This document shows, one piece after another, positions 9,343 through 23,030 of a stretch of DNA of 23,380 nucleotides. Each line of letters starts with the position of its first letter. Position 1 is the stretch's first letter. The notes below the pieces were generated by a model. It did no database searches. It was not told the origin of the DNA and worked only from the letters and a program-made list of their open reading frames with translations. Source of the DNA: a virus; IMG/VR virus record IMGVR_UViG_3300005613_002514, positions 1 through 23,380 of that record; one strand, written 5' to 3'. A program made the position numbers and the translations under genes.

Positions 9343-11010
9343 CTACAAAGTTGGTCTGTTTGTGTAATATCCCCTGAAACGTACCTCTGATATGAATAAA
9401 TCAAACTTTCCACTTGCTTGAAGTAAACACTGAAGCACCTGTCCTTCACCAGCAGCAACTTCTTTACTTTCTGTATTTATGGGAACACCACCGCTGAAAC
9501 CATATTTGTATTGTGGATCACCGTATATTGCAGTACCAAAGGTAGCTTGAATAGATGGTTTTAATGTAAATGTTATCGGTAAACCTGTAAGAGAGTTATC
9601 CCATTTTAAGGTTAGGACCAGATTAACGTCTCCCTCTGCGATTAATCTATAGTAAAGAATGATATCCGTAATCTTCTTGGTTACATCTCTATCCCCAAAA
9701 TCTAACGGAGCTAGTCGATACTCAAGAGCTATATCGTTTCCATTATAAGCAACCCCTGAATCTGAGACTAGGTATTTACTGATATCCCCGACAATGACAC
9801 TATTTCTATCTTTATCAACAAATACGCTGTGTGCATCAACATTTAAGCCTTTATCAAAACTCCATTCAGGTTCATTCTTTGTTTCTGCGTATGAGTAGAC
9901 ATACCTAGTATTTGCGTAAAATTTATCATCACTTTCAGGAAGCCAGAGTTGTAATTCCCCTTTTACTTTATCATTGACTAAAATCGTTCTTTCTAAAGTT
10001 GAGCATTTAAAAGACTCCAAATCAGGGAATATTAACTCAGATAAGCCTAGTGGTCGTGTATCTTGAAAATTCTGTGAACTAGCTAAAGAGTATAAGGCTT
10101 TATTAGAGGCTAAGAAAAAAATATCACTACTGTTACTTTTAGCAAAGGCTCTTTTCCCAATACATCCAATTTCTCTATCAAGTGGCTTAACCTGTATTGT
10201 TGGTTGTGGTGCATTGACTCTTGGTGCATAAACTCCAGACCAGAGGAATATTTCATTTTTACAGAAGATAACGAGATACTGATTACTTATAACTTCAAGT
10301 CCTGTAATTGGTGAATTTGAGAACAGATTTAAGAAGAAAGGGATATCAATACCCGAACTTGAATTATCCTCAAAATCCAATGACCCTATCTTTGAAGCAT
10401 ATAATCTAGTCGGAGCTATATTGTCGCCACTAAGGACATATCTACCTTCGTTAAACACCCCCAAAGAAGGATAGCCAATATCCCCTCCAAGAGTAGTCGG
10501 ATTATCTTCTTGTGCATATGGAGATTCTGCTAATTCTGTTTTGTTACTATTTGTGTAACTCGGTGGCCATGCTAAAGCCTGCGCTACTTTATCTTTAATA
10601 TGTACTGGTGGGTTTGCCCCATCTACCATTAGACATTCACCAAAGGTAGACTGAACAAGGAAAGGTTCGCCAGATGAAAACCATTCTGAGTAAATCTTTT
10701 CAGGGAATCCTGACTGATTATCTATTAAATAAATATTAGGGTAAGAGACCCCAATGTAACTAGGTTCTTCCCTTGCATTTTCAAAATAGAAGAGTCCATC
10801 CCAGTGAATGTTTTGTAGTTGTCCTGGAAATAAATCTTCTATCCCTCTTTTATTTGCTAAGCCAGAGGCTAGTAAAACTTCATTATTCTTCGCTTGTGAA
10901 GTTTGTCCTTGTTGAAGCTGTAGAGGATCATCTCTTTTATTGAGCCCTCCAAAGAACTTATAAGAATAAGATATTTCTTGCCCTCTTCCTTGTATTGGAT
11001 TTAAGGTCAT
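9343..11010 (-). CDS. Tail nozzle / tail stabilisation protein (P22 gp10-like position)
   Basis: This 555-residue beta-rich protein has an N-terminal segment (residues 17-60, FGGLNKRDDPLQLQQGQTSQ followed by an ASGLANKRGIEDL motif) of the kind found at the start of phage tail-nozzle and stabilisation proteins. A long region then alternates short strands and loops, with repeated aromatic-plus-Gly motifs such as IFFLASNKALYSLA and YLVIFCKNEIFLWSG, which suggests a beta-propeller. The C-terminal 130 residues form a beta domain. In podoviruses this protein closes the tail tube and binds fibres. It comes 3 bases after the Gly/Met repeat gene and downstream of the connector gene, the usual order. 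The assignment rests on fold-like patterns and position, not on a verified homology. Confidence 0.7.
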   Translation of the reverse strand: MTLNPIQGRGQEISYSYKFFGGLNKRDDPLQLQQGQTSQAKNNEVLLASGLANKRGIEDLFPGQLQNIHWDGLFYFENAREEPSYIGVSYPNIYLIDNQSGFPEKIYSEWFSSGEPFLVQSTFGECLMVDGANPPVHIKDKVAQALAWPPSYTNSNKTELAESPYAQEDNPTTLGGDIGYPSLGVFNEGRYVLSGDNIAPTRLYASKIGSLDFEDNSSSGIDIPFFLNLFSNSPITGLEVISNQYLVIFCKNEIFLWSGVYAPRVNAPQPTIQVKPLDREIGCIGKRAFAKSNSSDIFFLASNKALYSLASSQNFQDTRPLGLSELIFPDLESFKCSTLERTILVNDKVKGELQLWLPESDDKFYANTRYVYSYAETKNEPEWSFDKGLNVDAHSVFVDKDRNSVIVGDISKYLVSDSGVAYNGNDIALEYRLAPLDFGDRDVTKKITDIILYYRLIAEGDVNLVLTLKWDNSLTGLPITFTLKPSIQATFGTAIYGDPQYKYGFSGGVPINTESKEVAAGEGQVLQCLLQASGKFDLFISEVRFRGYYTNRPTL

Positions 11011-11013
11011 ATC

Positions 11014-11835
11014 TTATTTACCCTTTTTTCTAATTTGCCTTTGTTGCACTTTCCCTAATTGTCCTTGTGCCGCTTTAACATTACCAGACCTAACAAGTTT
11101 ACGAACCTTGCCATATCCTCCACCTTTAGTGTTAGCTAGAATCTGATTTGCGGCTTTAGTTCTATCTTCTACAGAGTTAAACTTCCCTGCTCCTTGGAAC
11201 TCCATAGGATTTTTAAGTCCATAGGTTGGTGCTGGTGTTTGTTTTGGTAATTGCCCTGCCCCTGTTTGTCCGACTTGATCTGCTGATACGATTTCAGTTT
11301 CTGGCTGCGTTGCTGGTTCTTGTACTGGTGTTTGTTCTACTGGTGCTTGCTGAGGCTTCTGCGCTGGAGTGTAATATTCCTGTTGCATCCTTGCAATGTC
11401 TTCACCTGACACTTCATTCCCTTCTTTGTCATAGTAAATAGGTGCTGACAATATAGCCATACCATAACTGTCTCTGCGACTAGGTTGATCTGCTACTGTT
11501 AGCCCATATTTGTCAAGAAACGCTTGATGCTCTTGCTGTATTGGGCTTTGCTCAGTTGGCATAAACTGATTATTATAGAACTGTTGTCCTAATCCAGATA
11601 AAGCCTGCGGTGAGAACATTGGGTAGTAATTAGGGAACATTCCGCCCATGTCGCCAAAGCCACCCATGCCATAACCCATGCCACCAAAGCCACCCATGCC
11701 ATAACCCATGCCACCAAGGCCACCCATGCCATAACCCATGCCACCAAGGCCACCGAAGCCAGACATTTGTGGACTAACACCATAACCCATCATCATATAA
11801 GGGTCGTAACCACCAAAACCAAATTGCATGTTCAT
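11014..11835 (-). CDS. Gly/Met/Tyr-repeat virion-associated protein
   Basis: This 273-residue low-complexity protein has three parts. Residues 1-75 are built of Gly, Met, Tyr and Phe, with repeated GGMGYGMGG units and an FGFGGYDPYMMMGYG start. Residues 75-140 are more globular (QQEHQAFLDKYGLTVADQ). The C-terminal third is Gln/Pro/Thr-rich and ends strongly basic (QRQIRKKGK). No membrane helix or enzyme motif is seen. Its ATG overlaps the stop of the connector gene by 4 bases (ATGA type), indicating coupling. It lies between connector and nozzle genes, so it is presumably a minor virion protein or assembly factor. The Gly/Tyr/Met repeats resemble adhesive or phase-separating sequences, but that is inference from composition only. 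Confidence 0.75.
   Translation of the reverse strand: MNMQFGFGGYDPYMMMGYGVSPQMSGFGGLGGMGYGMGGLGGMGYGMGGFGGMGYGMGGFGDMGGMFPNYYPMFSPQALSGLGQQFYNNQFMPTEQSPIQQEHQAFLDKYGLTVADQPSRRDSYGMAILSAPIYYDKEGNEVSGEDIARMQQEYYTPAQKPQQAPVEQTPVQEPATQPETEIVSADQVGQTGAGQLPKQTPAPTYGLKNPMEFQGAGKFNSVEDRTKAANQILANTKGGGYGKVRKLVRSGNVKAAQGQLGKVQQRQIRKKGK
11654..11760. repeat. About 3.5 tandem 30-bp repeats in the Gly/Met gene
   Basis: Copies begin at 11654, 11684, 11714 and (partial) 11744. Each 30-bp unit encodes ten residues of the GMGYGMGG(L/F)G type. The period is a multiple of three, so slippage changes repeat number without a frameshift. Copies differ at only one or two bases, which suggests recent expansion. Confidence 0.9.
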
Positions 11836-12536
11836 AATTGTCTATCCCCACTCATAACCCTTACATGGAGTCTACCAGCTTTCCCTTTGCGTTTTGATAG
11901 CCCATTGTTTCTCTCTTGATAAACTTTAAGGGCTTCAACTGCATCAATTAAAGCTTTTTGCGCTCGTGGGTCTTGTTTCTTTTCTAGGTAGTAAGCTTCT
12001 ACAATCTGAACTAGGACAAGATCACCTTCTGCATCAAAAGTCGTGATATTAGTTAAATCTTCCACTTCTAAGAGTGGGGTTACTTTATCGTAATGTATTT
12101 GAAGATCATAAGCTTCTGTTGGTATTGGTAGGATTTTCAAGTCTGTATTCTGAACATAAACATACTGTGGTCTATTATCCGGAAACTCCTGTAATTTAAG
12201 TTGCTCGACTGTCTCCAAGCTGTCAATAACAGTTAGAGGAATCCAAGAGTTACTATCATCAGACTTACGTTTTACGTTCTTAATAACCTTAATATCCCAA
12301 GGAGCATCTTCAATATTCGTTAAAGTACCTACTCCAACGCTCGTTGAGATTGTTCTAATTTCTCTACCAACTACATTTGATTTAGTAGAAGTATTGAATT
12401 TGTATAGAGCTTTCTCTAGTAAAGATGTAGCTTCCCTAGCCTCTGCTGTCGTTGAAGTAAGAGCAGTCAAAGGTAAGTCAGCCGCACCTACCCTTGACCT
12501 AACTTTGTTATAAATTGCTCGGTATGATAAGACTAT
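11832..12536 (-). CDS. Head-to-tail connector (adaptor) protein, likely starting at AUA
   Basis: The protein is helical at both ends with a beta-rich middle (residues about 80-160) and a basic C-terminus (LSKRKGKAGRLHVRVM), like the ring-forming adaptors below portals (P22 gp4 / T7 gp11 position). The first standard start codon is TTG at 12470, but it has no ribosome binding site and leaves a 62-base gap. The same frame is open upstream to a TAA at 12552-12554. The 22 added residues read as a plausible helix (LSYRAIYNKVRSRVGAADLP), typical of adaptor N-termini. The upstream gene's TAG overlaps an ATA at 12534-12536 by four bases, matching the 4-base overlaps of neighbouring genes, and AGGGG lies 7 bases before it. 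I therefore place the start at 12536 (234 residues). The safe minimum is 11832-12470 (212 residues). Confidence 0.7.
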   Translation of the reverse strand: MVLSYRAIYNKVRSRVGAADLPLTALTSTTAEAREATSLLEKALYKFNTSTKSNVVGREIRTISTSVGVGTLTNIEDAPWDIKVIKNVKRKSDDSNSWIPLTVIDSLETVEQLKLQEFPDNRPQYVYVQNTDLKILPIPTEAYDLQIHYDKVTPLLEVEDLTNITTFDAEGDLVLVQIVEAYYLEKKQDPRAQKALIDAVEALKVYQERNNGLSKRKGKAGRLHVRVMSGDRQL

Positions 12537-13099
12537 ACCTTCACCCCTGCCTTAAATATTTCTTCTATCTGTTCAATCTGTTCTTCTGTTATCGCTGGCT
12601 TTTTCGTCAGAATATTCTTCTCAGTTAAAATAAAGTCTATTGCTGATTTCTTTTTATCTGAGGACAATTTCTTATCGTTCATCATCTTCCAGTGTTTAAG
12701 ACTAATATTTCTTTCAGGTTCATCTAGGTTTCTAAAGTCAAAGTTAATATCGCAGACATAGTGAATAGGTGGAATATCTCGTGCAAATTCACGTGTACCA
12801 ATGAAAAAGCGAAGTAATCTTTCCCAGTCGCCATCTCTTGCAAATAAATCTGTCCTTACATAGAACAAGGGATTTGAACTAGCAAAAGAATCAAATTCAC
12901 TATGTTTAACGCCATGGTAGACGTTTTTTTGAAAGCCTGGATTTGGTAATCCATCATCTCCGACTTTATAATCGAACCCTCTTGTTAAGATTAATGGTCT
13001 AAGTCCATTACCTTCAATTAGCTTTCCATCTTCATCTCTATGTGGACTAATAACATCTTGAGATATTGTCAATCCTAATCTGTTTGTAATAAATGGCAT
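12533..13099 (-). CDS. Unidentified 188-residue protein following the capsid gene
   Basis: This 188-residue protein has a strong ribosome binding site (AAGGAG, 7 bases before ATG), and its gene is the first after the capsid gene. Residues 1-110 are mixed beta and loop with many aromatic and charged residues (LLRFFIGTREFARDIPPIHY). Residues 115-188 are helical, Lys/Glu/Asp-rich and end in two amphipathic helices (EEQIEQIEEIFKAG). There is no membrane segment or signal. I do not recognise the family. Its placement between capsid and connector suggests a head-completion or accessory structural role. Its TAG stop overlaps the putative AUA start of the connector gene. Confidence 0.8.
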   Translation of the reverse strand: MPFITNRLGLTISQDVISPHRDEDGKLIEGNGLRPLILTRGFDYKVGDDGLPNPGFQKNVYHGVKHSEFDSFASSNPLFYVRTDLFARDGDWERLLRFFIGTREFARDIPPIHYVCDINFDFRNLDEPERNISLKHWKMMNDKKLSSDKKKSAIDFILTEKNILTKKPAITEEQIEQIEEIFKAGVKV

Positions 13100-13138: not shown

Positions 13139-13168
13139 GGTATCGAGGGGTTATAATTCCCCGATACC
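13139..13168 (-). terminator. Hairpin on the capsid stop codon, probable weak terminator
   Basis: On the minus strand GGTATCG (13162-13168) pairs with CGATACC (13139-13145). An inner GGG/CCC stem lies next to a small bulge and encloses an AATTATAA loop. The 5' arm is the last codons of the capsid gene and the stop lies in the loop. CTTTCTCT follows, a poor U-tract. The place corresponds to the terminator after gene 10 in T7. It could be a leaky terminator or an mRNA-stabilising or processing hairpin. Confidence 0.6.
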
Positions 13169-14392
13169 TGTGATCCAAGCATGTAATTCTGGTCTGTTAA
13201 AGACTGTAGTATAGCCATTTAACATCATCTTAGACTCATAGTTACCATAAACTGGTAAGTCAATTTCTTTCATCAAGTGGAAGATTTCGATAGAGATATC
13301 TTCTTGGTTAGTATCAACGAACATTGATCTTGAACCTTGAAGAGCCTGTGAAGGGCATAAGTAGAAGTTAAAGCCACCTGCCTTGATAATTTCGATCTCA
13401 CCTGAAATAATTGATCTTTCGCCTCTTTCTGGTACTCCACGAGCTACATCTCTGTTTTGCTCAATTCTACCAAGAGCTTCAAAAGTTTCTTCTAAATCTG
13501 GGTCAATGTAAACTTTACACATATTAGACTTACCAAATTGCCTAGACATTTGACCTCTAACTCTGCCTGCACCTCTGTTTCTTAGTGCATGTGCTAATCT
13601 TGACCAGAATCTAAGAGAAGGAGCTTTGTTAGCTAAATCCTCGGTGTACATATTTTTCTGTAAGCCAAGGGTAATAATTCCACCTGCTCTTTGTCCATCT
13701 GAACCTTGAATTGTTCCATCTGGTGTTAAAGTTGCAGGTGTACCTGATCCTTTTCTACGAGGACCAAAGAAACCTTCAACTTCAAAGTTTAAGAACACAG
13801 AAGGCATTTGCTTTTCTGTTTGGTGTTCAAAAGTAAATTCGTTTACATCTGTAACTATGACATTGTCTTTCATGTCATTAGCAAGACTCATTCTGTAAGA
13901 GAAGTAGCTATTGTAATTGTAGTTTGTACTACCAAAACTAATATCATTTCCTGGGTGTGCATCAGAAGTCATGTCGTCATGTCTACTAATTGTGAAGTTA
14001 GTATCTGCCGCTAAGTTACCATCTGAATAACCTGCCGCTACTTCGACTGTTGCTTCGTTTGTTGCCGCATTGAAAGATTTTAAAACAAATCGACCAGTAC
14101 CAGAACCTGTAACAAATTCTGTTCTTCCTGGGATTAAGTGGTTAGAGTAATCATTAAGCGGATCAGTCTTTAAGACAAGGACACCATCACCAGCGGTATA
14201 AGCTGTCTCTAACTCTACCTTGTTCACTGGGTCTCTATCGCTCGCCCATCTTCTAGTACCTGGCGTGCTTGAAACTACTTTCATATTGTCCATGACAAGT
14301 GGCGTATCGACTCTTGAAGCTGATTGCTTGAGCAAGTCAATAGACTGGACTGTCAGTAGTTGAGATTGATCTTGTTGTAAATTATTAACCAT
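13151..14392 (-). CDS. Major capsid protein
   Basis: This 413-residue protein has the size and character of HK97-fold capsid proteins of podo- and siphoviruses: a Gln/Ser/Leu-rich N-arm (LQQDQSQLLTVQSIDLLKQS), a beta-rich Gly/Thr domain with a probable extended loop (residues 45-130), and a long central helical part with Arg-rich motifs (LRFWSRLAHALRNRGAGRVR). The ending, with FNRPELHAWITGIGEL, is well conserved in style. It is preceded by a Gln/Glu-rich scaffold gene and followed by the connector region, the expected order. The frame extends to a TTG at 14416, but that lies inside a hairpin. I use the ATG at 14392, just after the hairpin. Neither start has a good ribosome binding site, which is odd for the most abundant virion protein. 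The resemblance to SU10-type capsid proteins is from memory and unverified. Confidence 0.85.
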   Translation of the reverse strand: MVNNLQQDQSQLLTVQSIDLLKQSASRVDTPLVMDNMKVVSSTPGTRRWASDRDPVNKVELETAYTAGDGVLVLKTDPLNDYSNHLIPGRTEFVTGSGTGRFVLKSFNAATNEATVEVAAGYSDGNLAADTNFTISRHDDMTSDAHPGNDISFGSTNYNYNSYFSYRMSLANDMKDNVIVTDVNEFTFEHQTEKQMPSVFLNFEVEGFFGPRRKGSGTPATLTPDGTIQGSDGQRAGGIITLGLQKNMYTEDLANKAPSLRFWSRLAHALRNRGAGRVRGQMSRQFGKSNMCKVYIDPDLEETFEALGRIEQNRDVARGVPERGERSIISGEIEIIKAGGFNFYLCPSQALQGSRSMFVDTNQEDISIEIFHLMKEIDLPVYGNYESKMMLNGYTTVFNRPELHAWITGIGEL

Positions 14393-14395
14393 ACT

Positions 14396-14441
14396 CTTAC
14401 ATATAGCACCACACAATCAAACGTGCAATGCTATACGCAAA
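14396..14441 (-). promoter_or_regulatory. 19-bp RNA hairpin directly before the capsid start codon
   Basis: On the minus strand the 19 bases 14441-14423 pair without interruption (G-U pairs allowed, 7 of 19) with 14414-14396, around an 8-base loop. The core TATAGCA/TGCTATA is perfect Watson-Crick. The hairpin fills most of the gap between scaffold and capsid genes and ends 3 bases before the capsid ATG. There is no U-tract, so it is unlikely to be a terminator. It may be an RNase III processing site or a translation-control element. Confidence 0.65.
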
Positions 14442-15215: not shown

Positions 15216-15452
15216 TTAATCAAAAAAACCTAACTCTTGTGCCATTGCGGCATAAGTTGATCTTATAGTATATAATCTTACAACATCTTCCGAGCTTGTA
15301 CCTTCCGTGATTTGATGTGGGTAAGCCTGCGATCGTAAAAACTCTCCGATTACTTGCCATGCGTTTGGACATGAATGTTTAATTTCATCAACCGCTTTTT
15401 CTATTTTGGTCTTAGGTTTTATTACCGAGTCTGTCTTTTTAAAGTGTTTCAT
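15216..15452 (-). CDS. Small 78-residue protein between portal and scaffold
   Basis: This 78-residue protein has a basic N-terminus (MKHFKKTDSVIKPKTK) followed by helices (EKAVDEIKHSCPNAWQVIGEFL and an STYAAMAQELGFFD end). There is no membrane segment. Its ATG overlaps the portal stop by four bases (ATGA), so it is translationally coupled to the portal. I do not recognise it. Small genes at this position in short-tailed phages are usually head-assembly accessories, and that is the inference here. Confidence 0.75.
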   Translation of the reverse strand: MKHFKKTDSVIKPKTKIEKAVDEIKHSCPNAWQVIGEFLRSQAYPHQITEGTSSEDVVRLYTIRSTYAAMAQELGFFD

Positions 15453-17836
15453 CTTTGTGGTGGGTCTGGGTCTTGCGCTCCTGGGTTCTGTAATAGGATA
15501 TCTGTTTTCTGTCTTTGTACTTGCTCTTGAGCTTTTCTCATTTGCTCTTCTCTTTCTAGTTTATCAATATCTTTCATTATTTCACTAGGTTTTATATTTT
15601 CGCCACGAGTAATAAGGGCTAAAACTTTCTCAAAATCTACTTTATTAACTGTTTCTGGCGGTAAAGTTGAGAATAGAGTTAATAGTCTATCAAGTGTACC
15701 ATTTTCTGCCATTTTATTAAATACGGCAAGCGCACCTGAGAATCTAAGATCACCTTGTTTTAAATCTTCAGTTAGCATTTTAAAGTACATAGCATTTGAA
15801 GGTTCTGGTACTTCCATGATTGGTTCAACGGCAAGTGTCATTTGCTTGACCTGTAATTCAAGCTCCCCTGCTCTTTTTGCGGCTTCCTGCCTTTTTTGTT
15901 GTTCCATCATCTGGTACTGTTGCTGGTACATTTTTATTTCTTCTGATGTTGGTGGAACTGTCCCAACTGGTATGCCTTGTTCATTTGCCACTGTTTTTGG
16001 TGGTACGTGTTGAGCTGGATTAAAAGGAGGGATTGGACTTTCAGCGAGATGTGTAAGTCTTAGGACTTCTTCTGCTAGAGCTTGTTGCTCTTTTAAAATT
16101 CTTTCATTGTCTAAAAGCTCTCGTTGTCTTTTTCTGTAGAATCTTTCATATTCAATATTCAAGCCTGAAAAATCTAGGCACTGTTGGAACAGTTCATTAT
16201 TTTGAAGTATAAGTTCTAGTATTTGATCATCTGGTAATTGATCTTGCGGATTAGTTTCAGAGATAGCTTCTTTTGCCATTCCCATATCTTCCATAACCTG
16301 CTCTTTTAATATTCTAATTTTCTCAGTGAGTCTAACAAACCTAGAAGGGATAAGTATTCCTTTAATAAATCTTGCGGCAAGTCTCATAGGTTTAACATCA
16401 CCATTAGCCGAAACTCTAAGCATTTCAGTAGCCGTAGTTCGTCCACCATTTGCGATCCCTTGTGTACTTTTTGTTATGCCAAGACCTTCAAATACTTCTT
16501 GCTCGATCATTTTTAGAGCATTAAAAGCAGGTTGGACTGAGTTCATAACAGAAGCATCAAAGTATGGGTAGCACTTCCCTTTCATAATTTTGAACGGATA
16601 AATCCCGATTGAATCTTCTTCTTCTTCATTCTCAATTGCTCCAAGCATTGACTGTTCTTTAACAATTGGCGATTGTGAGAAATAGGTAGTTGTCCTAACC
16701 GCGGCTGACATAAAAGCATTAGCGGCTCTTTGGTGTTCTAAATATGGATAAAATAATCCTTCATTGTAGAACTCATCACCATTAGATGGGATAACATTTT
16801 GCAGGTAGAAACCTGTATCAAGATCGGCTACATCTTGTTCTATGCCAAGTATATAAAACGGTCTATTTTCTATCGCATTATTATCTAAAAATTCTGGTTT
16901 GATTAAGCCATATACTACGACATTACCTGCGGTGTAGACTTCACCTTGATACTCAAGGTTAATAGACGGACAGCATATTTTGTAAACCCTTATTTTGTCA
17001 AAGGGTACATCATGATCATCTATAACTGAACTTCCATTACTGTGCAGTTGCCTAATATCATTATTAGCGTTATTGTCTTTAACACTCCCCCCTGGTTTCA
17101 GTTGAGCTAATATTTCTTTATCAAAGTCTGGTCTACCTTGGATTAAGTCATATCCAATATCTAAGAATCTAAGTTTATTCGTTCTTTGCGGTGAACTTCT
17201 TTGTGGGTATAATGCGACCTGCTGTGTATTTGGATTAATCGGTCTTACTGTTTTAATTTTATCGTCATACTCATGATCAATTGACCAGAAAGAATGTGCT
17301 AGTCCTTCTGATAAGATTGATTGATATTCTGAAATAAATCCAAACTGTTGATCTTCTGTTTGTAGAATATTTTGAAGGCAAGCGTTAAGAGCTGGCAAGA
17401 AATCCTGTAGATTATTTTCGTTACAGAATCGAGAGTTTGTTCTTTTAATACCAGTCGAATCATCATCTAACGGGAAGGCAATATTATCCATTAGCTCAAA
17501 GAGTGTTCTATGTGCTTTAAGTAGAATTGGTGTATGTAGTGCTGAAAATTCATCTTCTTCTCTCATCCCAATTAATTCTTCTTGCGACTCAGGGAAGGGT
17601 ATATTAAAAGCATTGGTTAGATATTCAGAATCAATACCAAGTTTAGCGGCTGTACCATTAAATAAACCATCTGCCATTGGATGTTGCTTTAAGGCACATT
17701 CAAGAGCAAATCTTTTGTGTAGGTATGGGTTATCATCGAAGCCATTTACAACGAGGTCGTAGAGATGTTCCTCTAGTTTCTCTTTTAGCTCTGGTTCTAG
17801 GTTATAACCGAAATCCGATAAGTCTAGTACGTTCAT
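15449..17836 (-). CDS. Portal protein
   Basis: This 795-residue protein of the podovirus portal type would be a dodecameric ring at the capsid vertex through which DNA enters and leaves. Visible parts are a helical and acidic N-terminus; a beta/alpha body (residues 150-400) with YNEGLFYPYLEHQRAANAFMSAA; and the portal-like segment around residues 445-500 (FEGLGITKSTQGIANGGRTTATEML, then a Met/Arg-rich helix), matching the stem/clip helix region with its typical TATE motif. The last about 200 residues, long Gln/Glu/Lys helices with Pro-rich breaks, are probably a barrel or crown. Longer than T7 portal (about 535 residues) and near P22 size (725). It overlaps neighbours by 4 bases on both sides and precedes scaffold and capsid genes. 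Confidence 0.85.
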   Translation of the reverse strand: MNVLDLSDFGYNLEPELKEKLEEHLYDLVVNGFDDNPYLHKRFALECALKQHPMADGLFNGTAAKLGIDSEYLTNAFNIPFPESQEELIGMREEDEFSALHTPILLKAHRTLFELMDNIAFPLDDDSTGIKRTNSRFCNENNLQDFLPALNACLQNILQTEDQQFGFISEYQSILSEGLAHSFWSIDHEYDDKIKTVRPINPNTQQVALYPQRSSPQRTNKLRFLDIGYDLIQGRPDFDKEILAQLKPGGSVKDNNANNDIRQLHSNGSSVIDDHDVPFDKIRVYKICCPSINLEYQGEVYTAGNVVVYGLIKPEFLDNNAIENRPFYILGIEQDVADLDTGFYLQNVIPSNGDEFYNEGLFYPYLEHQRAANAFMSAAVRTTTYFSQSPIVKEQSMLGAIENEEEEDSIGIYPFKIMKGKCYPYFDASVMNSVQPAFNALKMIEQEVFEGLGITKSTQGIANGGRTTATEMLRVSANGDVKPMRLAARFIKGILIPSRFVRLTEKIRILKEQVMEDMGMAKEAISETNPQDQLPDDQILELILQNNELFQQCLDFSGLNIEYERFYRKRQRELLDNERILKEQQALAEEVLRLTHLAESPIPPFNPAQHVPPKTVANEQGIPVGTVPPTSEEIKMYQQQYQMMEQQKRQEAAKRAGELELQVKQMTLAVEPIMEVPEPSNAMYFKMLTEDLKQGDLRFSGALAVFNKMAENGTLDRLLTLFSTLPPETVNKVDFEKVLALITRGENIKPSEIMKDIDKLEREEQMRKAQEQVQRQKTDILLQNPGAQDPDPPQR

Positions 17837-19171: not shown

Positions 19172-19172
19172 A

Positions 19173-19201
19173 TTTACTATTTTAACGCAATTTGCTAAAA
19201 T
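19173..19201 (+). promoter_or_regulatory. Candidate rightward sigma70-type promoter
   Basis: TTTACT (4 of 6 to TTGACA) is followed after exactly 17 bases by TAAAAT (5 of 6 to TATAAT). Transcription would start near 19207-19209, just before the CTCGG hairpin and the strong terminator. It lies against the start of the leftward membrane-protein gene. Confidence 0.45.
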
Positions 19202-19253
19202 GATTATTACTCGGTTTTTAATTCCTTTGTTGTCCGAGAATCATATAATCATC

Positions 19254-19293
19254 AACCCCTTGGTTTTTATTTTTTTCCCCAAGGGGTTTTTTT
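19254..19293 (+). terminator. Strong intrinsic terminator on the plus strand
   Basis: A perfect 10-bp stem AACCCCTTGG (19254-19263) / CCAAGGGGTT (19279-19288) is followed by seven T residues. The loop is T-rich. There is no T-run on the other strand side, so it acts rightwards. No gene lies immediately upstream on that strand, which makes a short transcript likely. Confidence 0.8.
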
Positions 19294-19396
19294 GTTATAA
19301 TTTTAAATCCAGTCCAGTCGCTGGCTCTGTCGAAGGAGTAGAATAAAAGGGACAAAAGCCTTTTAAAATTCTCATTGACACTAGTGTAGTTACTTA

Positions 19397-19430
19397 GGGG
19401 TTAAAGGCTGGCTAACCCCATTAATTTTTT
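19397..19430 (+). terminator. Second rightward hairpin with T-run before the HNH gene
   Basis: GGGGTTA (19397-19403) and TAACCCC (19413-19419) form a perfect 7-bp stem with a 9-base loop. A T-run at 19425-19430 begins five bases after the stem, so it is a weaker terminator or a leader structure. A palindrome ACACTAGTGT (19378-19387) overlapping a TTGACA box lies just before it. Confidence 0.5.
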
Positions 19431-19472
19431 CTAATAAATATTAACTAAATATTAAGATAGAATTAGGGCAAG

Positions 19473-19925
19473 ATGATTCATTACCCTGAGTATATTCCAA
19501 AGTTTAATCAAAGTAAAAACAGATTATACCCAAGTGAATCCGAACTTTTAGAAACAAATCCCCATTTAAAGGGAATGTCTACGAAGAAAAGAAAAGAGAT
19601 GCAGAGACATCACATTAATTGTGATCGCCAAGATGGAAGAGCAGAGAATATTCATGTTGTAGATTCTTTAACTCATACCCAGCTACATCAACAGTTACAG
19701 CAGATAATTACTGAATTAATTAAGAAAAATATTATCGGTTATGATCGCAGCGATCCTCATTATTATATTAAAGATGAAAAGCTTTTAGAAAAGTTTGTTA
19801 AACCAAAAGTGGTTAAGGATAATTTTAGAGTTGAGAGAGTAGAAAGGGCAATCGGGAATGCTTTAGCTGAGTTTGATCTTAGACCAACTATCTATACATC
19901 TTGGGATAAAGCTAAAATTGAATAA
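19473..19925 (+). CDS. HNH homing-type endonuclease
   Basis: This is a 150-residue protein and the only rightward gene of the window. It carries the HNH nuclease core around residues 46-75: His46-His47 in MQRHHINCDRQDGR, Asn59 in AENIHVV, and His68/His72 in LTHTQLHQQL. The order (H-H, then N, then H) and spacing fit the ββα-metal family, where the first His activates water and Asn and the last His hold the metal ion. A Lys/Arg-rich N-terminal stretch (KKRKEM) and a Lys-rich C-terminus could bind DNA. Its end overlaps the convergent fibre-companion gene by 14 bases. It is inserted against the main transcription direction in a non-coding gap, which is typical of free-standing homing or morphon endonucleases. 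The ATG has only AGGG four bases before it. Confidence 0.8.
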   Translation: MIHYPEYIPKFNQSKNRLYPSESELLETNPHLKGMSTKKRKEMQRHHINCDRQDGRAENIHVVDSLTHTQLHQQLQQIITELIKKNIIGYDRSDPHYYIKDEKLLEKFVKPKVVKDNFRVERVERAIGNALAEFDLRPTIYTSWDKAKIE

Positions 19926-20337: not shown

Positions 20338-20568
20338 TCAGGGGGTTTCCTCCGATACGGGTAGCAAAGACTGAATGTTTTCAAACGGCTCTACTAAATA
20401 ACTGACGTTCAATTTGTCCTGAAACAGCCCATCCGGAATCTCCGTCAGGATGTCTTCCATTAAAAACCAACGCCCGTCTGTTAGTTGCACTGGGGCAAGG
20501 CGATGCTGCCCTGTTTGATTGGCGATTAATGTTTGTGCATCTGCATCAGTAAAAATTAGTACGTTCAT
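20338..20568 (-). CDS. Fibre-companion protein, 76 residues
   Basis: This is a 76-residue protein whose ATG overlaps the stop of the large fibre gene by four bases (ATGA), so it is translationally coupled to it. Residues 1-16 (MNVLIFTDADAQTLIA) and the segment PVQLTDGRWFLMEDIL resemble the N-terminus and the NGKWFI motif of the 130-residue neighbour. Small proteins of this kind follow receptor-binding proteins in many phages and may help them fold or trimerise. There is no catalytic motif, signal or membrane segment. The function is inferred. Confidence 0.7.
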   Translation of the reverse strand: MNVLIFTDADAQTLIANQTGQHRLAPVQLTDGRWFLMEDILTEIPDGLFQDKLNVSYLVEPFENIQSLLPVSEETP

Positions 20569-22196
20569 GGTATTGCTGCTCCTATTGCTGTTATTAGATT
20601 AGACACTCTTGTATCAAGAAGTGCGAGGTCGAGTGCTTCGCCGATGGAGTAGAAGGCGAGGCGAGTGTCGGTAAGGGCTCCCGGAGATCCCTCTACTCCA
20701 CGACCATATACCAAGAGATTTCCATTTGTAGGTGTTGTACTATTGCTTCCGTACTGGGTTGTTACTGAATCGTATCTTCCATCAACAGAAGTTGCACTAT
20801 TTCTGCTAACTCCTATAAAACCTGGTACCGCAGTAGAATCAGCCTGAACCGCATCTGTTGCAAAAGCAACTCTGTAGTACCGATTGCTAGCAGTGTATAG
20901 AAGCTGACTGTCCCCAGCGGAGCTACCGCCAAATCCGATGAAAGCTCTGGTAGAACTTCTTTCCTCCGGCTCCGTTCTGTAAACAGCGAGGTGTCGGTTG
21001 TTCTGTGGATCAGCATTGTTATTTCGCTTGCTGCTTAGATATTTAGTTGCAGCATTCCCCTTCAACCCCGTCTTGCGATCATAATCATTAGACACGAAGT
21101 TGAAGTTGGTTGGAGCAGTTCCGACTAACGGCACCAATGCACCAGCCAGCGTTCTCGCACCTGCTAAAATACATGATGCCTTAATGGCGTCCCAGATACC
21201 ATCCGCCTTGCAGTCCAACACAAAATTGTTGATCGCTGTCTTGACGGAGGCTTCTAGCGTCTGACCGTCTGCTGTCTCGACTGCGGTGATGTAGGCTTGT
21301 GCGTCAGAGTCGTACACAGGTTCACCTATATACGGTGGATATAACTTGTAAGGGTGTCCACTCGGTAAATTGCTTTCAAGACCCCATTTCCATGCGAGGT
21401 AGCCTTCGAGCTTCTGGCGGTCCTCAGTCGACAAGTCTGCGTTGCAAACGATGACCTCGCCGATGTGGGCATTTGCCCATCCCGGACCGTCTTGCTGCTT
21501 GCCGCCGATCTGGATTCGCGATGTAACTTCATCTGTTGACCAAGTCTGAGTGGCCTGCGTGATGTATGTAGGCTGCGAAGGACCAGTGGCAGTGACAGTG
21601 ATGGTGCCGCCATTACCATTCGTGCCGCCGTTTCTGCCGACGGTTGCGATACGAGGCTCAAAAAGATCAGTCACTTGCACAGCATATGTATTGCCAGTGT
21701 CTGCTCGGCCAGAGTCGTGAATACCGATTTCTGATCTGTTATTCATGCGCTGTAGTATTAGAGTGCCGACGTTGCGGTCATTCTCGTTTGTGTTGGTTCC
21801 AACAATCGGGCGCCAAACGGCGAAGCCACTCAACATCTGAAACGCTGCCCCATAGAACAGGTCACCCTGCGAGCTGACGTTTGTCGTGGCACACGCCATT
21901 AGGTCATCGCTATCGTCGAAGAACACTGTGGGTTTGCCGACGAACCCAGTCGGCTGATATGTTGGCTGTGCAGATGACGTGGACTGAATAACGTGATGGT
22001 CATTACCACTCTTATCATTCCATTGACTTACGTTAGAACCGTTAAGTATAATTGAAGCTGTGTCTTCAGCATCTAACCACAGGGCAAGCGAAGCACCAAG
22101 TTCATCCGGTCGCCACAGTTTCACACCGCCTACAGCAGTGCCATCCCAACGATAGGGGTGGTCATAAGGTAGTTTGTTTACGAGTTCAAGAACCAT
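20565..22196 (-). CDS. LamG-like receptor-binding / tail fibre protein with C-terminal fibre domain
   Basis: This 543-residue protein begins (residues 1-25) with the tail of a LamG-type unit (LVNKLPYDHPYRW). A full concanavalin-like domain follows (residues 36-280), opening SLALWLDAEDTASI, with VSQWNDKSGN and closing EDRQKLEGYLAWKWG-LPSGHPYK. Residues 285-543 form a different domain, opening YDSDAQAYITAVETADGQ and containing CKADGIWDAIKASCILAGARTL and PLVGTAPTNFNFV; this module recurs in environmental phage fibres as I recall it. The LamG core (about 21350-21950) is visibly more G+C-rich than the rest of the window, indicating transfer or recombination. It probably binds surface glycans. Its ATG directly follows the stop of the upstream LamG gene in frame, and GGAGG lies 7 bases upstream. 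Confidence 0.8.
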   Translation of the reverse strand: MVLELVNKLPYDHPYRWDGTAVGGVKLWRPDELGASLALWLDAEDTASIILNGSNVSQWNDKSGNDHHVIQSTSSAQPTYQPTGFVGKPTVFFDDSDDLMACATTNVSSQGDLFYGAAFQMLSGFAVWRPIVGTNTNENDRNVGTLILQRMNNRSEIGIHDSGRADTGNTYAVQVTDLFEPRIATVGRNGGTNGNGGTITVTATGPSQPTYITQATQTWSTDEVTSRIQIGGKQQDGPGWANAHIGEVIVCNADLSTEDRQKLEGYLAWKWGLESNLPSGHPYKLYPPYIGEPVYDSDAQAYITAVETADGQTLEASVKTAINNFVLDCKADGIWDAIKASCILAGARTLAGALVPLVGTAPTNFNFVSNDYDRKTGLKGNAATKYLSSKRNNNADPQNNRHLAVYRTEPEERSSTRAFIGFGGSSAGDSQLLYTASNRYYRVAFATDAVQADSTAVPGFIGVSRNSATSVDGRYDSVTTQYGSNSTTPTNGNLLVYGRGVEGSPGALTDTRLAFYSIGEALDLALLDTRVSNLITAIGAAIP

Positions 22197-23030
22197 TTAT
22201 ATTCCTCCCCACTTCCATGCAAGATAGCCTTCTAGTTTCTGTCGGTCATCGGTGGTCATTGTTGAGTGTGTCAGTACAATTTCGCAAAGTTGTGAACCTG
22301 AAGGTAAAGGGGTCACTCCGTCAAAAATAGATGTTCGCAGTGAGTCTGTGTCGCTTGTAACGCCAGCAGCTTGAAATGGCTCGCTTGTTAGGTCTTGCGT
22401 TCCATCAGTCCAGTGATTTGCTACACCGTCAGAATATGCCGCTTGAGCCACTTGAATCCACTGGTTGCCACGATTTGTAAGCGAAGCGGTAGAGCTTGAT
22501 ACTGTTTGGTAAGAGTCTCCATCCGATCGTCTTCCAGCGATTGCATATCTGTTTGTTATGCTTGCCGATGGATTAGGCGTAAAAGCAAAACGTGTGTTTG
22601 TTAAACTTGTGCCTGTACTCATATATAACTCGTTCGTATTGCTAGTGAAAGTTGCTCCGAGTGGATGAACGCCGACAATTGCGCATGTGATACCGCTTAC
22701 GTTTCGTCCAAGCGAAGTAGTACCGAGTTCAAGAATGTCGCCTCCGTCGGTTTCGAGCGTAGGCTTTCCATTGAATCCTGTCGGAGAATAGGTGGGTTGT
22801 AACGAAGCCGTTGATTGACTTGCATTTCTATTATTTCCACTCTTATCATCCCATTGGGAGACATGACCAGAACCACCTGGACCAGGACCACCGCCACCTC
22901 CTAGCGTGATCGTGCTTGCATCATCTGCATCTAACCATAAAGCTAACCCCGTAAGCTCCGCAGGAGTCCAAACTACGTTTCGCTGACTTTCAATTCCTAA
23001 TCTTAAATTTAGTTTCAGCCCGAAACTCAT
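22197..23030 (-). CDS. LamG-like (concanavalin-fold) tail fibre protein
   Basis: This 277-residue protein begins with a short basic N-terminus (residues 1-20). It is a LamG-type unit from about residue 21: TPAELTGLALWLDADDASTI, VSQWDDKSGNNRNASQS, then a beta-sandwich, ending DDRQKLEGYLAWKWGGI. It is clearly paralogous to the next gene, and the DNA at the ends of the domains is also similar. A Gly/Pro-rich insert of about nine residues (GGGGGPGPGGSG) sits in a loop where the paralog has only LNGSN. The gene opens the leftward structural operon. The ATG has only AAGG two bases upstream, but a perfect TATAAT lies 7 bases before it. It probably binds host surface sugars or attaches the larger fibre protein. 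Confidence 0.8.
   Translation of the reverse strand: MSFGLKLNLRLGIESQRNVVWTPAELTGLALWLDADDASTITLGGGGGPGPGGSGHVSQWDDKSGNNRNASQSTASLQPTYSPTGFNGKPTLETDGGDILELGTTSLGRNVSGITCAIVGVHPLGATFTSNTNELYMSTGTSLTNTRFAFTPNPSASITNRYAIAGRRSDGDSYQTVSSSTASLTNRGNQWIQVAQAAYSDGVANHWTDGTQDLTSEPFQAAGVTSDTDSLRTSIFDGVTPLPSGSQLCEIVLTHSTMTTDDRQKLEGYLAWKWGGI

Follow-up and report, generated by a model that had tools for sequence, protein, structure and literature searches.

Where does the head-tail adaptor gene of this virus begin? The window, by which we mean the whole 23,380-base virus record that was analysed, carries on its minus strand an adaptor gene ending at 11832, and the frame of this gene contains no ATG, GTG or TTG from the TAA at 12554-12552 down to the TTG at 12470. 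The minus-strand sequence of this frame is TAA (12554-12552) GGC AGG GGT GAA GGT ATA (12536-12534) GTC TTA TCA TAC and then CGA GCA ATT TAT AAC AAA GTT AGG ... CCT TTG (12470-12468). A preliminary description of the locus, made from the letters alone, had proposed that translation starts at the ATA, and what it reported seeing is confirmed: on recounting, 27 sense codons are open upstream of the TTG, none of them a standard start, and 22 codons lead from the ATA to the TTG. To our knowledge, AUA is almost never used by cells as a start codon. The features at issue are as follows.

11832-12536, minus strand: head-tail adaptor (SU10/T7-gp11-type connector), 234 residues counted from the ATA; assigned by PF24175 and by an AlphaFold model compared with solved adaptors.
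12534-12536, minus strand: ATA, the proposed start codon of the adaptor; no standard start lies in frame before the TTG, and the codon occupies the start-methionine column of the alignment.
12471-12536, minus strand: the 22 codons from ATA to CCT, encoding helix 1, which a TTG start would lose; Asn10 is invariant and pLDDT is about 89-95.
12468-12470, minus strand: TTG, the first standard start codon, not accepted as the true one; its Shine-Dalgarno (SD) is badly spaced and its use would delete a conserved helix.

The identity of the gene product, which the preliminary description had called a connector or adaptor, stands on both sequence and structure. Counted from the ATA, the protein matches Pfam PF24175 (SU10_adaptor) with 30.0 bits, above the curated cut-off of 27, and its residue 5 falls on position 3 of the profile. 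A structure predicted from the single sequence was uninformative (pLDDT 36.6); the AlphaFold model built with 28 homologues has a mean pLDDT of 83.7, residues 1-20 lie at about 89-95 and helix 1 spans residues 5-15. The model shows the adaptor fold, a helical domain with an N-terminal helix together with a beta domain. Its best Foldseek matches are chains of portal-tail complexes (A4, VP1, KHP30 and SU10, with E down to 2.8e-8), and Foldseek and VIA-align together match it to head-tail adaptors of known structure, from cyanophage A4, VP1, KHP30, SU10, T7 and others (VIA-align against 9k09_d: Z 14.0, rmsd 9.0, 199 aligned; against T7 gp11, 7box_N: Z 11.1, rmsd 6.8, 164 aligned). In 9k09_d, 7wmp_m, 8zkk_B and 9d80_B, among others, residues 1-3 of the chain are matched by residues 1-4 of the model, which argues that the ATA is the position where real adaptors begin. 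The protein resembles the SU10 adaptor and T7 gp11 (PF24175) in sequence family, fold and gene place after the capsid gene; it differs in that the homologues examined start at ATG or GTG.

The neighbouring genes place the adaptor in a familiar order (portal, scaffold-like protein, major capsid protein, 188-residue protein, adaptor), which is kept in two relatives, L117 and G001.

15449-17836, minus strand: portal protein; PHROG 332 (connector), E 2e-6, and 29% over 788 residues to L117.
13151-14392, minus strand: major capsid protein, starting at ATG 14392; weak SU10_MCP match.
12533-13099, minus strand: upstream gene of 188 residues ending in TAG; an open frame with counterparts at the same place in L117 and G001.
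9343-11010, minus strand: downstream structural protein of 555 residues, used to find relatives; 36.8% to L117 and 30.6% to G001.

Several other features of the window were seen in passing. The longest frame of the capsid gene begins at TTG 14416, and ATG 14392 is the better fit to relatives (14392-14416). The 273-residue protein after the adaptor contains a Gly/Met/Tyr-rich 30-base tandem repeat (11645-11761, about 3.9 copies, 94% match, GGMGYGMGGF). The run of minus-strand genes is interrupted for 740 bases (19172-19911); this break holds a single gene on the plus strand (19473-19925), which resembles an HNH endonuclease (weak match to HNH_3) and may be a homing insert. The two neighbouring genes at 20565-23030 resemble each other in their N-terminal domain (LWLDAxD...WxDKSGN...PTYxPTGFxGKPT), apparently by duplication; a LamG-like fold for this domain is a guess.

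Relatives were needed to locate the N-terminus, and close ones were not found: peptide-pattern scans of viral contigs for the adaptor, portal, capsid and 555-residue proteins gave none, nor did the genome collection or phage DNA at blastn sensitivity. One alignment (A2) was too diverged to serve as a scan query. A degenerate DNA pattern from the 555-residue protein retrieved more than 100 viral contigs, most of them carrying adaptor genes, and a second DNA pattern gave G001/L142. L117 is a true relative (36.8% in the 555-residue protein, 29% over 788 residues in the portal), with its capsid and upstream genes arranged as in the window; G001 is 30.6% identical to the window in the 555-residue protein. 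Five further pattern matches (L143 and L150-L153) were discarded as relatives, since no homologous genes were found in them. One other record, Microcystis phage MaAM05 (L002, MW495066.1, 274 kb), carries pgcA, kimA, lepA, proS and ftsH beside phage structural genes and appears to be a bacterial chromosome with a prophage.

The window adaptor reads (ATA)VLSYRAIYNKVRSRVGAADLPLTALT, that of L117 starts at GTG and reads MVTYLDLINDARGRQ, and that of G001 starts at ATG and reads MASYLDYINKARRHMGMSPLGATDLT; both are syntenic with the window and neither start lies more than one codon away from the ATA, which bears out the position when the start codons of related connectors are compared. Against these two relatives the ATA is the best of 450 minus-strand offsets (score 43, runner-up 15), and the N-terminal similarity exceeds that of shuffled sequences (p = 1.6e-4). 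Alignment A5 joins the window adaptor to 28 homologues. The start methionine lies exactly in the ATA column in 23 of these 28 and within one column in the other five; Asn10 is invariant across all 29 sequences, R15 and L/I8 are conserved at 90% or more, and all three are encoded upstream of the TTG. The claim that the 22 codons read like an adaptor N-terminus is upheld by the alignment, the offset comparison and the model. We note that when all 20 distant adaptors were combined in one profile, the ATA and TTG versions scored equally (24.7 bits each), whereas a narrower set with nearer relatives discriminated between them.

These comparisons bear directly on the possibility that translation begins at TTG 12470 to give an adaptor of 212 residues without helix 1. 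The TTG is the first standard start codon of the frame, and a genuine start there should be matched by homologues that begin at this point and conserve nothing upstream; A5 instead shows a conserved helix with its invariant Asn, and none of the homologues examined, in A5 or in the survey of 106 genes described below, uses such a start. Use of the TTG would also leave a 62-base coding-like gap. It has no usable ribosome binding site, as had been claimed: its best pairing is -6.1 kcal/mol and lies about 13 bases upstream, compared with -11.9 kcal/mol for the ATA site. Because the conserved residues (Asn10, R15, L/I8) all lie upstream of it, we reject the TTG and regard initiation there as very improbable. 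The location of the adaptor N-terminus at the ATA is, on these alignments and the model, well supported.

Whether ribosomes actually use the AUA is a separate matter. In a survey of related adaptor genes, the 106 whose N-terminus could be read had ATG (96) or GTG (10) at the expected place; none of them lacks a standard start, so the window adaptor is a singleton. The other genes of the window all start with ATG (21/21). The non-standard start is not conserved, given the GTG of L117, the ATG of G001 and an ATG or GTG in every one of the genes surveyed. Weaker starts do recur in the adaptor gene: besides L117, the GTG starts belong to a subgroup of HMO-2011-like adaptor genes (L035, L042, L103, L029, L030, L067, L114, L088 and L095). 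A changed genetic code does not account for the ATA. Of the 70 alignment cells opposite internal AUA codons of six genes, 45 hold Ile, Val or Leu and a single one holds Met, and reassignment of AUA to Met is thereby ruled out. As AUA is read as Ile in elongation, AUA at the adaptor start would be an initiation event.

The signals around the ATA are the following.

12541-12554, minus strand: extended Shine-Dalgarno UAAGG-CAG-GGGUGA, within the last codons of the upstream gene; anti-SD duplex -11.9 kcal/mol.
12533-12536, minus strand: ATAG start/stop overlap of four bases, with the same -4 geometry as four ATGA overlaps of the window.

The pairing of -11.9 kcal/mol is the strongest among all genes of the window and is attained by 0.35% of random 20-mers drawn from it; in the relatives it is ordinary (L117, with GTG, -3.6; G001, with ATG, -5.4). 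The AGGGG at 12548-12544 does end 7 bases before the ATA, as had been noted. RNA structure around the start is unremarkable (z 0.33) and gives no sign of hairpin control. Two features expected of an AUA-initiated gene, a conserved N-terminus with no usable standard start and an extended, properly spaced SD, are both found here. The same SD could instead serve codon 2, GTC (12533-12531), leaving the ATA unused, and in Streptomyces sigR a GTC that follows an extended ribosome binding site has been proven to be the start (PMC5472188). When L117 and G001 are each aligned pairwise with the window gene, their starts fall on this GTC and not on the ATA, so a start there deserves mention, and we count this alignment, together with the singleton status of the window gene, against AUA initiation. 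GUC, however, requires first-base wobble as well as a third-base mismatch, where AUA has the third-base mismatch only; its SD spacing is 10 rather than 7; and Met stands in the ATA column in 23 of the 28 homologous adaptors. Initiation at GTC thus seems to us improbable, if less so than initiation at the TTG.

The overlap with the upstream gene carries further information. On the minus strand ATAG reads at 12536-12533, so the ATA and the upstream TAG do overlap by four bases, and the ATGA overlaps reported at 11832, 15449, 17833 and 20565 are all present. The upstream protein has an L117 homologue at the same place (31.7% over 123 residues), and G001 has a similar MPFV...-type open reading frame where the window has this gene. 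Prokaryotic genes seldom overlap over long stretches, and the most frequent overlap is -4 (PMC10666635). The junction shows one of the two overlaps, -4 or -1 nt, expected of a termination-reinitiation pair, but as ATAG and not as ATGA or GTGA. Canonical starts end in G and permit only TGA, so that, judging from the codon sequences, a -4 overlap with TAG would be possible only for ATA.

The geometry also bears on whether the base at 12534 is simply an assembly error, or is carried by a minority in a phage population that has ATG. Standard starts in all 106 related adaptor genes and in the 21 other window genes would fit such an error, as would the fact that AUA is a poor start, and peptide scans of viral contigs and blastn-level comparison with phage DNA found no second assembly of the phage or close genome. 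An ATG, on the other hand, would change TAG to TGG and extend the upstream gene to 12490-12488, giving an overlap of 49 bases, whereas overlaps are at most 4 bases in the window and 17 bases in L117, and adjacent same-strand genes of seven annotated phages overlap by at most 35. The existing base yields exactly the favoured -4 geometry, and no broken genes elsewhere in the contig suggest poor sequence. The neat junction made by ATA, set against the odd overlap made by ATG, argues, short of proof, that the base is real; we judge an error or variant unlikely, although it is the strongest of the alternatives. The context of strongest SD and four-base overlap favours an ATA that is real and used.

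Overlapping frames with an SD-like stimulator upstream might also suggest that the 188-residue protein and the adaptor are fused by -1 frameshifting at the junction. A slippery heptamer of the form X XXY YYZ is absent at GTGAAGGTATAG, and such a fusion is not conserved, since the G001 genes lie 9 bases apart, the adaptor having its own ATG, and those of L117 overlap by 17 bases with a GTG. We give this fusion as little credence as the TTG start. The interpretation put forward in the preliminary description is supported as to position and context, and actual use of the AUA by ribosomes is likely.

We therefore favour, with reasonable though not full confidence, a model in which the adaptor is translated from AUA 12536-12534 by fMet-tRNA, with the help of the extended SD and coupled termination. 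Gene identity, N-terminal position, lack of a standard start, SD strength, overlap and lack of recoding were computed here, and from them we infer AUA initiation, coupling and an effect on dose. Ribosomes on the 188-residue gene would traverse the extended SD (UAAGG...GGGUGA) and terminate at UAG; held by the SD, they would restart with fMet on the AUA that overlaps this UAG, presumably as happens where this genome has ATGA junctions. The poor third-base codon-anticodon match would be offset by the strong SD and the supply of arriving terminated ribosomes. An adaptor ring of the T7/SU10 type has about 12 subunits. The weak AUA probably limits output, which fits a protein required in about 12 copies per virion; little protein suffices for a ring of this size, which may make a weak start tolerable or even useful. 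More speculatively, ATAG may be a dose-setting junction: a single G-to-A change in an ancestral ATGG would have given the upstream gene its stop and, at the same time, the adaptor an AUA in place of AUG. Only ribosomes just finishing the upstream protein could then make the adaptor, and IF3 together with the extended SD would set the level. We put this forward tentatively and think it a good deal less probable than not.

AUA starts are already known in bacteria. The infC, ccpN and citZ genes of Staphylococcus aureus start at AUA, reporter output from the AUA sites tested is about 10-30% of that from AUG, and extended SD sequences are noted at the non-canonical sites of infC, ccpN and cvfC1 (PMC13009471). 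The window adaptor is like infC, ccpN and citZ in its AUA start and like infC and ccpN in its extended SD (PMC13009471); those are cellular genes whose starts were shown by ribosome profiling and/or reporters, whereas ours is a phage virion gene known from sequence evidence, and its AUA, unlike theirs, overlaps an upstream stop. Against AUA initiation, its efficiency in E. coli is given as at most about 1% of that of ATG (Hecht 2017, in the passage of PMC12864459 that cites it). In Streptomyces sigR a GTC start and an extended ribosome binding site hold down the amount of one protein (PMC5472188); the adaptor shares the non-canonical start behind an extended site, but the sigR codon is different and was proven by mutation, with regulation by IF3 shown. 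The junction resembles the -4 nt ATGA and GTGA overlaps of termination-reinitiation pairs (PMC10666635, PMC6728339), including the four ATGA cases of the window, in its four-base overlap and in an SD inside the upstream gene, and differs in pairing a TAG stop with ATA. In the open-access literature, which was the literature searched, we found no report of an AUA start in a phage virion gene or within an ATAG overlap.

Automatic gene callers as a rule take ATG, GTG and TTG alone, and for this reason annotation would leave out the first 22 residues of the adaptor, or overlook the gene. Should AUA be the start in use, non-canonical starts would extend to essential phage virion genes, a strong SD together with a terminating ribosome could support a near-cognate start, and a -4 overlap would be feasible with TAG. 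The adaptor junction would then offer a compact test case for how the choice of start codon sets protein dose.
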